From positions 1 to 64,000 of the IMG/VR virus record IMGVR_UViG_3300028835_002196: a stretch of DNA of 64,000 nt; one strand, written 5' to 3'. The notes beneath the pieces are model-generated. The model ran no database searches and was not told where the DNA came from. It saw nothing but the letters and a program-made list of their open reading frames with translations. Below, piece by piece: positions 4,078 through 10,972 of this stretch. A program made the position numbers and the translations under genes. Each line of letters begins with the position of its first letter. Position 1 is the first letter of the stretch. Source of the stretch: a virus.

Positions 4078-4254
4078 TTATTTTCCTTTCTCGTGATCGT
4101 CCCGCCAAAACTTTTTTCTTGCCCGCGTTGCTTTATCAAAAGTTTTCAGGCAATCTGTCAGATATTCTGCAAGAACAAAATCGGGAGTATCACTACCATT
4201 TTCAAGACTGTTCTTGTTTATTAGGTCCTGCAATTCTTTTCTGAATTTTTCCAT
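4078..4254 (-). CDS. Conserved 58-aa phage protein
   Basis: 58 aa (MEKFRKELQDLINKNSLEN...). The segment NSLENGSDTPDFVLAEYLTDCL is close to a small conserved protein found across many phages and prophages; the ensuing FDKATRARKKF helix is also typical. Cytoplasmic, likely helical; function unknown. It lies in the correct strand and spacing between genes at 3857 and 4276. Confidence 0.75.
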   Translation of the reverse strand: MEKFRKELQDLINKNSLENGSDTPDFVLAEYLTDCLKTFDKATRARKKFWRDDHEKGK

Positions 4255-4275
4255 TTTGTTTGTTTTTGACGCTTG

Positions 4276-4611
4276 TTACTTGTAAGAATTATTATTTTTC
4301 CATCCTTTTCTATCAGTAATTTTTAATAATTCAATCATATCCATATGACCATATAGTTTTCGTAGGGTTTCAAAAACTTCATCACTATAAACATCCTGAA
4401 CCATTCTTATCTCTAAATGTTCTTGATACATCTTCCTGGCCTGTTTAATATGCCACTCCCTTCTGAGTTGTTTTATTCTCTCATCGAGCTCTTTTATATT
4501 AAAGCCCGGTAAACCTGGTTGTTCAGATATAGCCTTAATAACAACACCAGGAAGAAGGGCTGCCCCTGCAAGGGTAGCACCTATGTTCTTAAAAAACTTT
4601 CTTCTTTTCAT
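4276..4611 (-). CDS. Tat-leader secreted protein 3
   Basis: 111 aa. The leader MKRRKFFKNIGATLAGAALL has the RR-x-F-F-K motif, a hydrophobic core and PGVVIKA. The mature part is charged and helical (ELDERIKQLRREWHIKQARKM), unlike the other three Tat-leader proteins. The start overlaps the end of the upstream gene by 23 bp. Function unknown. Confidence 0.7.
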   Translation of the reverse strand: MKRRKFFKNIGATLAGAALLPGVVIKAISEQPGLPGFNIKELDERIKQLRREWHIKQARKMYQEHLEIRMVQDVYSDEVFETLRKLYGHMDMIELLKITDRKGWKNNNSYK

Positions 4612-8233: not shown

Positions 8234-8644
8234 TTACTTTTCAAATTCAATAACAGCGTTTAATACATCTGTATATCTTTCAAACCAACCCATCATCATT
8301 TTACGCATGAGCCCAAAATCCTCACCTTTTGCATATAGTCCAATAATAGGAATACCTTTAGCGTAAGCCATTCCGCACTCGGCTGCTGCGTCTTTCCCGG
8401 AAGGAGAAATATATATAACCAGATCAGATTTCATCACTCCTTCGGAATCATACATAAAAGACTGATTTGATTCAGTTGAATTTACCCAGGTTTCAAAATC
8501 AAATTTTTTTGTAATATGATTATGATTTTCACCATAATTATTTTCGACAAACGATAATACTTCGTGACCTGCTTCACGCAGAAAAACTGTAAGCATTTCT
8601 ACAGTATGCTGATTTTTCCAAGAGCTTGCTATATATATTTTCAT
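8234..8644 (-). CDS. Nucleoside 2-deoxyribosyltransferase-like protein
   Basis: 136 aa, close to the usual length of this family. MKIYIASSWKN opens a Rossmann-like fold; SDLVIYISPSGKDAAAECGM contains the conserved D and the putative catalytic Glu (about residue 89); GIPIIGLYAKGEDFGLM is the conserved end. The family cleaves or transfers deoxyribose between bases, or hydrolyses N-glycosidic bonds in nucleotides. In a phage this could serve nucleotide salvage, base modification or turnover of nucleotide signals. Its start is 27 bp from the first pentamer array. Confidence 0.75.
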   Translation of the reverse strand: MKIYIASSWKNQHTVEMLTVFLREAGHEVLSFVENNYGENHNHITKKFDFETWVNSTESNQSFMYDSEGVMKSDLVIYISPSGKDAAAECGMAYAKGIPIIGLYAKGEDFGLMRKMMMGWFERYTDVLNAVIEFEK

Positions 8645-8670
8645 AATCCCTTTTCAATAATTAATTTTAA

Positions 8671-8740
8671 AAAACTAAACTTTACTTTACTATACAACGC
8701 CAGACGGAACTACACGGTACTATGCGATACACCACTAAAC
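8671..8740. repeat. Pentamer-phased array A (NNNAC x14)
   Basis: Fourteen consecutive 5-nt units. Twelve end in AC and two in GC (aacgc, tatgc); the first three bases of each unit vary freely. On the minus strand the unit is GTNNN. It begins aaaac taaac tttac tttac, nearly the same opening as arrays B-D. It lies just upstream of the deoxyribosyltransferase-like start codon. Confidence 0.9.
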
Positions 8741-8775
8741 TCAATATTTTATTTAATTCCTTCAATTCTAATTAT
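8741..8775. repeat. 35-nt AT-rich spacer S1
   Basis: Separates arrays A and B and keeps the 5-nt register (35 = 7 x 5). It differs from spacer S2 (8876-8910) at two positions. On the minus strand one frame reads LELKELNKILS with a stop in the adjoining pentamer, so it may be the relic of a gene end. Confidence 0.85.
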
Positions 8776-8875
8776 AAAACTATACTTTACTATACGCTAC
8801 CTCACACCACAAGACCTCACAATACTCAACATCACCCTACTCGACGATACGTCACACCACCATACAGCACTCAAC
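8776..8875. repeat. Pentamer-phased array B (NNNAC x20)
   Basis: Twenty consecutive units, all ending in AC. The first eleven are near-identical in order to the first eleven units of array C (three differing positions), after which the two arrays diverge completely while keeping the AC register. Confidence 0.92.
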
Positions 8876-8910
8876 TCAATATTTTATTTAATTTCTTTAA
8901 TTCTAATTAT
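8876..8910. repeat. 35-nt AT-rich spacer S2
   Basis: 33 of 35 bases identical to S1 at 8741-8775, at a distance of 135 bp (27 pentamers). With the following units it forms a duplicated block of about 90 bp. Confidence 0.85.
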
Positions 8911-9070
8911 AAAACTATACTTTACTTTACGCTACCTCACACCACAAGACTTCACGATACTCAACAACACTCTACTTGACAAAACTTTACATCACAAAAC
9001 GTAACTTTACAACACTACACCCTACCCTACAAAACCACACAACACCATGCTCAACAGCACGGTACATTAC
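8911..9070. repeat. Pentamer-phased array C (NNNAC x32)
   Basis: Thirty-two consecutive units, 31 ending in AC and one in GC (catgc). The last unit, attac, contains the stop codon of the RAMP-like gene on the minus strand, so the array abuts the coding region with no gap. Confidence 0.92.
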
Positions 9071-9642
9071 TTAAATTCTTTAATTTTTTCAGCAACAAAT
9101 CTTCCAAACATACCATTGCAAGTAGGCCTGAAACTTCCAATCCCACAATGCGTACCAGCATATTTCAACACATCTTCTATTGTTGGCTTTGTAATCGTAT
9201 CATTATCAATCCACAATTCAAAATCAACCTTTAAATTGAGCCACTTGGGCCTGATCACGATAACTCTTGCCCCGGCTTTACGATTCCAGACGCTTCGCTT
9301 ATCTATAATATCCCAGGGGGGAAGCCATATTTTTTCCGGTTTAACAAAGAACATAGCTGCAACAATATTTTTCATAGACTTACGGCTATTTCCAACCTTC
9401 GCCTTCAAGTATGCTCCTGCATTGATCATTGCTCCACGCAAATGTTCGGATGGTAAATAATGCTTTTTTTCCTTCATATCGTAGTAAGAATGAAACTCAG
9501 CCCTGACATTATCAGGTTGAGAAACCTCTGGTCGTTCAATGATCGCACCACGTCTTTTTTCCCATTCGTCAAGGGTTTCGTCATCCATGCGATGTTGCAT
9601 GTATGGCGTTGTGCCAATAATTTCTACTTTGTACTTCTTCAT
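9067..9642 (-). CDS. Conserved phage protein, RAMP/Cas7-like candidate
   Basis: 191 aa from ATG 9642. The GTG start further upstream would add residues translated from array D and is rejected. It opens with a beta strand VEIIGTTPYMQHR, has YLPSEHLRGAMINAGAYLKAK in the middle, and ends GTHCGIGSFRPTCNGMFGRF. This layout (TP-L/M-x-H start, LP-x-x-L-x-x-A core, late G-x-G-x-x-RP) matches a widespread phage family of unknown function whose glycine-rich end recalls RAMP proteins such as Cas7. The RAMP relation is my inference. It is the only gene bracketed by pentamer arrays on both sides. Confidence 0.65.
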   Translation of the reverse strand: MKKYKVEIIGTTPYMQHRMDDETLDEWEKRRGAIIERPEVSQPDNVRAEFHSYYDMKEKKHYLPSEHLRGAMINAGAYLKAKVGNSRKSMKNIVAAMFFVKPEKIWLPPWDIIDKRSVWNRKAGARVIVIRPKWLNLKVDFELWIDNDTITKPTIEDVLKYAGTHCGIGSFRPTCNGMFGRFVAEKIKEFK

Positions 9643-9657
9643 AATATTTGTATTAGT

Positions 9658-9787
9658 TAAACAAAACTTTACTTTACTAGACGACACATCACTGAACTGT
9701 ACTTCACAAAACAATACGCTACTGGACGCTACTTGACTAAACTGCACCCTACTCTACTATACCCCACATTACGCCACAGAACGAGAC
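9658..9787. repeat. Pentamer-phased array D (NNNAC x26)
   Basis: Twenty-six consecutive units, all ending in AC, filling the gap between the RAMP-like gene start and the small gene at 9795. On the transcribed minus strand it reads GTNNN repeated and would be the 5' leader of the RAMP-like mRNA, ending 15 nt before its ATG. The variable triplets show no obvious order. Confidence 0.93.
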
Positions 9788-10678: not shown

Positions 10679-10972
10679 TTATTCGTTTACAATGCAAAAA
10701 ATCTCAGTTATCATTACTTCATTTTTTGCATTTTCCATTTGACTATCAGACGAACTTATTTTAAAAATTTTTCCATTCAGATCAACATGTAATTCTCCAT
10801 GCTCATCAACCACAATCCTTAAACTTTTCAATATGGTAGCTACTTTAGCCTCTATTTCATCCAGTTCCTTTAAAGCCTTATTCTTATTTTCTAATTTCGT
10901 ACTTCTGGCCTCAGCATAGACAAATACGTTCTGAAGTAAGTCTACTACATTTATTTCCTCGCTTTTATTCAT
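10679..10972 (-). CDS. Small helical protein of unknown function
   Basis: 97 aa from ATG 10972 (MNKSEEINVVDLLQN...), chosen because earlier starts fall inside the upstream gene. A central helix NKALKELDEIEAKVATIL is followed by a beta hairpin (GELHVDLNGKIFKIS). Function unknown. Confidence 0.55.
   Translation of the reverse strand: MNKSEEINVVDLLQNVFVYAEARSTKLENKNKALKELDEIEAKVATILKSLRIVVDEHGELHVDLNGKIFKISSSDSQMENAKNEVMITEIFCIVNE

Follow-up and report, generated by a model that had tools for sequence, protein, structure and literature searches.

The four arrays of a pentanucleotide repeat that flank a small RAMP gene in this viral DNA, including array D, which occupies the gap upstream of the gene, are very probably the guide part of a phage-borne VIPR system with a divergent repeat, GT/NNN. 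We refer to the whole analyzed stretch of 64,000 nucleotides as the window and list its features in Table 1. As described in the preprint on the system (PMC13142463), VIPR pairs a small RAMP protein, Vipr, with vrRNAs whose pentanucleotide repeats have the form GGY/NN; double-stranded DNA is specified by the NN bases, with one base skipped per step, mostly at the codon wobble position, the complex represses genes of competing phages, and arrays homologous to those of the window were experimentally shown to be guide RNAs.

Table 1 Features of the vipr-like locus in the window
Feature	Position	Strand	Remarks
Array D, 26 GTNNN units	9658..9787	(-)	26/26 units; proposed upstream vrRNA, possibly leader too
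vipr-like RAMP gene, 191 aa, Cas7/Csm3 fold	9067..9642	(-)	phrog_4652, PDB 36pp, AF2, Foldseek/VIA
Array C, 31/32 GTNNN units	8914..9070	(-)	Starts directly past the vipr stop codon
Possible vrRNA tail: AU-rich spacer past array C, with weak hairpin	8876..8913	(-)	Recurs after array B; fold no better than shuffles
Array B, 20/20 GTNNN units	8779..8875	(-)	Last 14 units match those of array C as a diverged copy
Possible vrRNA tail: AU-rich spacer past array B	8741..8778	(-)
Array A, 12/14 GTNNN units	8674..8740	(-)

Array D was as regular as the original prediction had claimed: all 26 of the NNNAC units at 9658–9787 were perfect, with AC in register over 9661–9787, and the gap to the start codon at 9642 was indeed 15 nt. 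AC accounts for 5.0% of the dinucleotides in the window, and period-5 runs of AC or GT in 200 first-order Markov simulations of the 64-kb window reached a maximum length of 3 (109 simulations), 4 (85) or 5 (6). The longest run observed in the window was 27, in array C, and a window scan of the remaining dinucleotides at periods 3 to 8 revealed no run above 8. Arrays A–C lie on the opposite side of the gene from array D; all four are oriented alike relative to the gene and, read in its direction, take the form (GTNNN)n. Arrays B and C stem from a recent duplication with a 135-bp period and have their last 14 units in common with few base differences. Array D had been described as sharing no unit order with the others beyond a TTTAC TTTAC opening, and comparison with arrays A–C upheld this, the region at the gene-proximal end being the sole shared part. 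The common 3′ end of the arrays on the minus strand is approximately GTAWA GTAAA GTWTA GTTTT, which looks like a handle rather than a trace of shared origin of the variable part. These last units are near-constant and the hairpin in the 3′ tail is weak, with z values of 0.28, −0.32 and 1.20 for folding against shuffles. Rfam searches (hammerhead or other) of the window and of the surroundings of arrays in 12 related loci returned nothing relevant at the gathering threshold; no tRNA or tmRNA was found within the window, and its tandem repeat scan contained no CRISPR array of repeats and spacers.

The prediction that the adjacent gene is RAMP-like was borne out by a structural model and by homology. 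The AlphaFold (AF2) model of the 9067–9642 protein (pLDDT 92.7) resembles Csm3/Cas7-type RAMP proteins (Foldseek E 1.3e-6; VIA Z 11.6 over 160 residues), and the one solved structure that its sequence matched is Vipr of phage SUSP1 (PDB 36pp), with a phmmer E-value of 9.8e-8 over residues 1–187. Profile searches raised this match to 1.2e-16 with the protein's own clade and 4.4e-50 with the wide family. Because 36pp was absent from the Foldseek list of the AF2 model against the PDB (library to April 2026), the similarity to Vipr rests on sequence, by which we judge that the protein is a homologue of SUSP1 Vipr, a small RAMP of the Vipr clade. The protein also matches phrog_4652, a family of unknown function (8.3e-17), and no Pfam family. 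Its homologues begin at the ATG at 9642, not at a GTG at 9747 within array D. The gene past array A (8234–8644, minus strand) is nucleoside deoxyribosyltransferase-like (phrog_12607, 9.6e-14) and is not conserved across the loci of the clade.

A pattern scan, run on viral contigs without protein information and requiring 15 ACNNN units, yielded at least 118 stretches; among the matches listed, the gene family was present at 50 of 64 loci with diverse units and at none of 37 microsatellite-like loci. With the control pattern CANNN the family was present at 15/22 diverse and 2/58 microsatellite-like loci; since this control behaves like ACNNN, the gene family accompanies period-5 arrays of several motifs. 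A protein-first search, which was not conditioned on arrays, gave 13 loci, most of them with period-5 GT arrays, and period 5 (with its multiple, 10) was the sole recurring period around 98 family members. The latter set was partly selected via the AC and CA patterns, but the 13 protein-first loci agreed with it. The association of arrays with the gene family is independent of PMC13142463. The fixed motif differs by lineage, being GGT, GAC, CAC, GTT/GTC (GTY), GCA or GGC in others and GT alone in the lineage of the window, and it tracks the Vipr protein tree, with 19 changes compared with 50.5 for shuffled labels.

The clade of the window comprised 15 loci. In the protein tree, 12 window-clade proteins formed one group, and L063, which also carries the GT-only label, sat elsewhere. 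New here is that in this 15-locus clade the published GGY/NN repeat appears as GT/NNN with all three N equally variable, the free positions holding 1.90, 1.89 and 1.86 bits over 395 GT-carrying units; the form may be listed already, because PMC13142463 allows, at family level, "a related consensus" in a supplementary figure (S17). All 23 GT arrays at the 15 loci were gene-sense and none antisense. Many arrays of relatives are located downstream of the gene, and in the window, L012, L016, L018 and L019 an array ends approximately 15–30 nt upstream of the vipr start. Under strict scoring the arrays of L011 and L014 were absent or merely degraded. No neighbor family recurred in four or more of the 15 loci within 5 kb, some of the flanks being short, and no conserved accessory gene emerged. 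One clade locus, with a protein 52% identical, lies in a Draconibacterium MAG, for which reason a host among the Bacteroidota is likely for the phage.

Several related loci showed features of their own. In L216, from the Draconibacterium MAG, three GT arrays (8644–8700, 8768–8830 and 8918–8980) are each followed by a tRNA T-arm-like hairpin, CCCTGGTTCGATTCCAGGGGTGGAACA, which received no ARAGORN or Rfam call and is possibly a tRNA-like end or a processing site of vrRNAs. Very long unbroken arrays occur in L016 (2619–2983) and L021 (3599–4028), in which a TT unit (e.g. GTATT TT...) occurs in register every 8–15 units, as if several vrRNAs had been fused via minimal separators. The vipr homologue of L020 (2938–3543) is split over two frames beside a short, weak array, which marks either a decayed locus or a sequencing error. 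The phage contig L018 contains a tmRNA gene (4123–4526; RF00023, 90.8 bits) approximately 0.5 kb downstream of vipr.

To read the arrays as guides, we removed GT from each unit and joined the remaining triplets. Read in this way, units 1–10 of L016 give RHDYGRILAI, identical at 10/10 residues to a peptide of a PolX-like gene of the same record, located just upstream of the array; the guide codons (AGG CAT GAC TAT GGG AGG ATT CTT GCG ATA) differ in the majority from those of the gene (CGC CAT GAT TAT GGT CGA ATT TTG GCA ATC). In L017 the guide reads ERFDYDQGIAL against NRFHYDQGIAW of its own ExoVIII-like (ExoVIII/RecE) gene downstream, and in L019 two guides match one Walker A region of a terminase-like gene, which we read from its motif as the terminase large subunit. 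When triplet-frame guides were compared with their own records, those of L016, L017 and L019 were the top four of 94 tests (z of 8.8, 6.7, 6.3 and 3.4), and the two other frames did not exceed a z of 4.3. When unit order was shuffled 400 times, no shuffle attained the score observed for L016 or for L017, whereas 6 and 4 shuffles did so for the two L019 guides; by this measure the L016 and L017 cases are strong and the L019 cases supportive. Each repeat would stand for three bases of coding sequence in codon phase, matching the published VIPR spacing. The guides have the appearance of copies taken from another phage's homologous gene; compared with them, a phage's own gene differs at approximately 3 of 20 codon positions 1–2 and at the majority of third positions. 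Stop-codon depletion over all clade guides was not significant (p 0.2–0.26), and a search for targets of all guides of the examined loci, under several reading models with skips of 0–2 nt, revealed no overall excess over shuffled guides. Separately, CA-type guides of L175 (about 10816–10893, plus strand) and L182 (about 1397) match, with a 1-nt skip, a single gene stretch in their own or a sister genome.

The relatives also bear on the reading of the third free base. One viral contig, L327, agreed with the L016 guide at 18/18 first and second positions and at 3/9 third positions, a pattern that fits the published skip rule. The L017 match was found without recourse to the third base, yet at all sites of amino-acid agreement that base leaves the residue unchanged (approximately 0.02 by chance, by our own count); this fits either three-base reading or the copying of entire codons. 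Matches in L016 and L019 are biased on this question because the third base was used in finding them. Only tentatively do we propose that the GT/NNN lineage might read all three free bases, a vrRNA then corresponding to contiguous target DNA laid out in codon-sized triplets separated by GU. If this were true, three-base reading would be a code unlike the published rule of two bases read and one skipped, and a phage could strike a gene of its rival without harming its own version, in which other codons specify the same peptide.

The window's own guides gave no comparable matches in the collections covered. Read in triplets, array D gives LSGNGIRRALQSPSIFETSDVLKKFL, and the opposite-strand reading of arrays C and B gives ALTKFDSNSLKFIKVFNYPPKHNHSSGI and ALTKLNSIPSDVTHSS, respectively. 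Searches of viral contigs, phage records and Bacteroidota genomes found neither a target nor a homologue for these guides. Exact 8-unit patterns had 14 matches in viral contigs for D and 31 for B/C, none of which convincingly extended past the seed, and the triplet-read D and C guides, searched as peptide and as DNA against phages, PHROGs, Pfam and approximately 690 genome look-ups around Draconibacterium, gave chance-level matches only. The window guides are free of stop codons, which alone is not significant.

By analogy with the homologous system of PMC13142463, the minus strand would be transcribed into (GUNNN)n RNAs serving as vrRNAs, along which one Cas7-like Vipr subunit per 5-nt repeat would grip the fixed GU and present the free bases to DNA. 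Per 5-nt repeat, 3 nt of target would be addressed: the first two free bases would correspond to codon positions 1 and 2, and the last to the wobble position. The resulting RNP would act on competing phages by binding their dsDNA and silencing core genes. The original prediction of a minus-strand (GUNNN)n transcript is in keeping with this scheme: such a transcript is most likely, with the RAMP protein as its likely predicted binder, given, indirectly, the 23:0 ratio of sense to antisense arrays and a repeat motif that follows the protein tree.

The locus resembles the type II VIPR of the Escherichia phage SUSP1 (Vipr PDB 36pp; PMC13142463) in its homologous small RAMP protein, in intergenic pentanucleotide arrays with fixed and hypervariable parts, and in the multiple arrays that flank the gene on either side; the SUSP1 ratio of 3 nt of target per 5-nt repeat also fits the guides of the relatives, the third position being the codon wobble. 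It differs in its fixed GT instead of GGY, in three free bases instead of two, in an AU-rich tail without a convincing fold and in arrays of up to 26–32 units, compared with the 9–16 published for VIPR (PMC13142463). We looked for the GGY consensus and a vap gene; the window has GT, and no vap gene is conserved in its clade, so we kept the system out of VIPR type II (the SUSP1 / P. fulva clade), one of the seven VIPR types. Megablast of the window phage against the phage collection gave no match. A second comparison is Felixounavirus wV8 (EU877232), a relative of Felix O1, whose gene 95 is homologous (29% identity) and likewise flanked by arrays, of GGTNN type, together with annotated DR_4 repeats; unlike the window, this locus mostly has three fixed bases (GGT), a second small gene (gp94) follows, and the host is Escherichia. 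The DR_4 repeats at 2759–2816 and 4152–4209 of the wV8 locus adjoin GGTNN arrays, and classic Felix O1-type phages on this account probably carry a VIPR locus. With Csm3/Cas7 of Class 1 CRISPR-Cas the window protein shares its predicted fold and, presumably, the role of a subunit repeated along a guide RNA, whereas the window has a 5-nt step with fixed bases in every step rather than CRISPR repeats and a continuous spacer. A Pfam scan of the nine window proteins around the array identified no cas genes, and the RAMP family had no cas match in PADLOC.

The main role that the original prediction gave to array D, an autoregulatory leader in which the RAMP protein would bind (GUNNN)26 in its own mRNA and block translation, did not hold up as the leading explanation, and we consider it unlikely. 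Its appeal lies in the 15 nt separating array D from the start codon and in the similarly close upstream arrays of L012, L016, L018 and L019; many arrays of relatives, however, are located on the downstream side of the gene, their free bases are guide-like and resemble coding sequence, and the homologous SUSP1 arrays are separate guide RNAs (PMC13142463). The two roles are not mutually exclusive. Array D is best taken foremost as a vrRNA guide, and since it abuts the start codon, autoregulation of vipr is a possible and compatible function, if not the best-supported one.

A far less probable reading makes the arrays a dsDNA operator, or iterons of a replication origin, bound by the RAMP protein. 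Regular spacing, the presence of several arrays around a single gene and the phage replication genes near the loci of relatives would suit such a site, but a 5-bp spacing corresponds to half a helical turn, and both the RAMP fold and the published vrRNA function of the family speak against it. A dsDNA site would also not need arrays that are strictly gene-sense (23:0), and binding of an ACNNN/GTNNN DNA site by the protein alone is disfavored because it leaves this strand bias unexplained. That the arrays are a structural or neutral low-complexity repeat, maintained by slippage and beside a RAMP gene by chance, is extremely improbable. The recent duplication of B and C is what such a repeat might produce, but the units are diverse, with GT kept and NNN near-random, and chance runs reached at most 5. 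Diverse arrays accompany the gene and microsatellites do not, and we rejected this explanation on that association together with the Markov simulations.

VIPR is known so far from one 2026 preprint, whose experiments concern GGY/NN systems (PMC13142463). The window and its relatives indicate that systems of the VIPR kind are widespread in uncultured phages and that their fixed motif varies along the protein tree, a variation that offers natural material for studying how a RAMP protein reads an RNA scaffold. With two fixed bases only and no conserved partner gene, the GT lineage may count as one of the most reduced forms, and in it the possible reading of the skipped base becomes testable. The resemblance of some guides to a phage's own PolX, exonuclease and terminase genes, in other codons, suggests attack on close relatives and prompts the question of self-avoidance.
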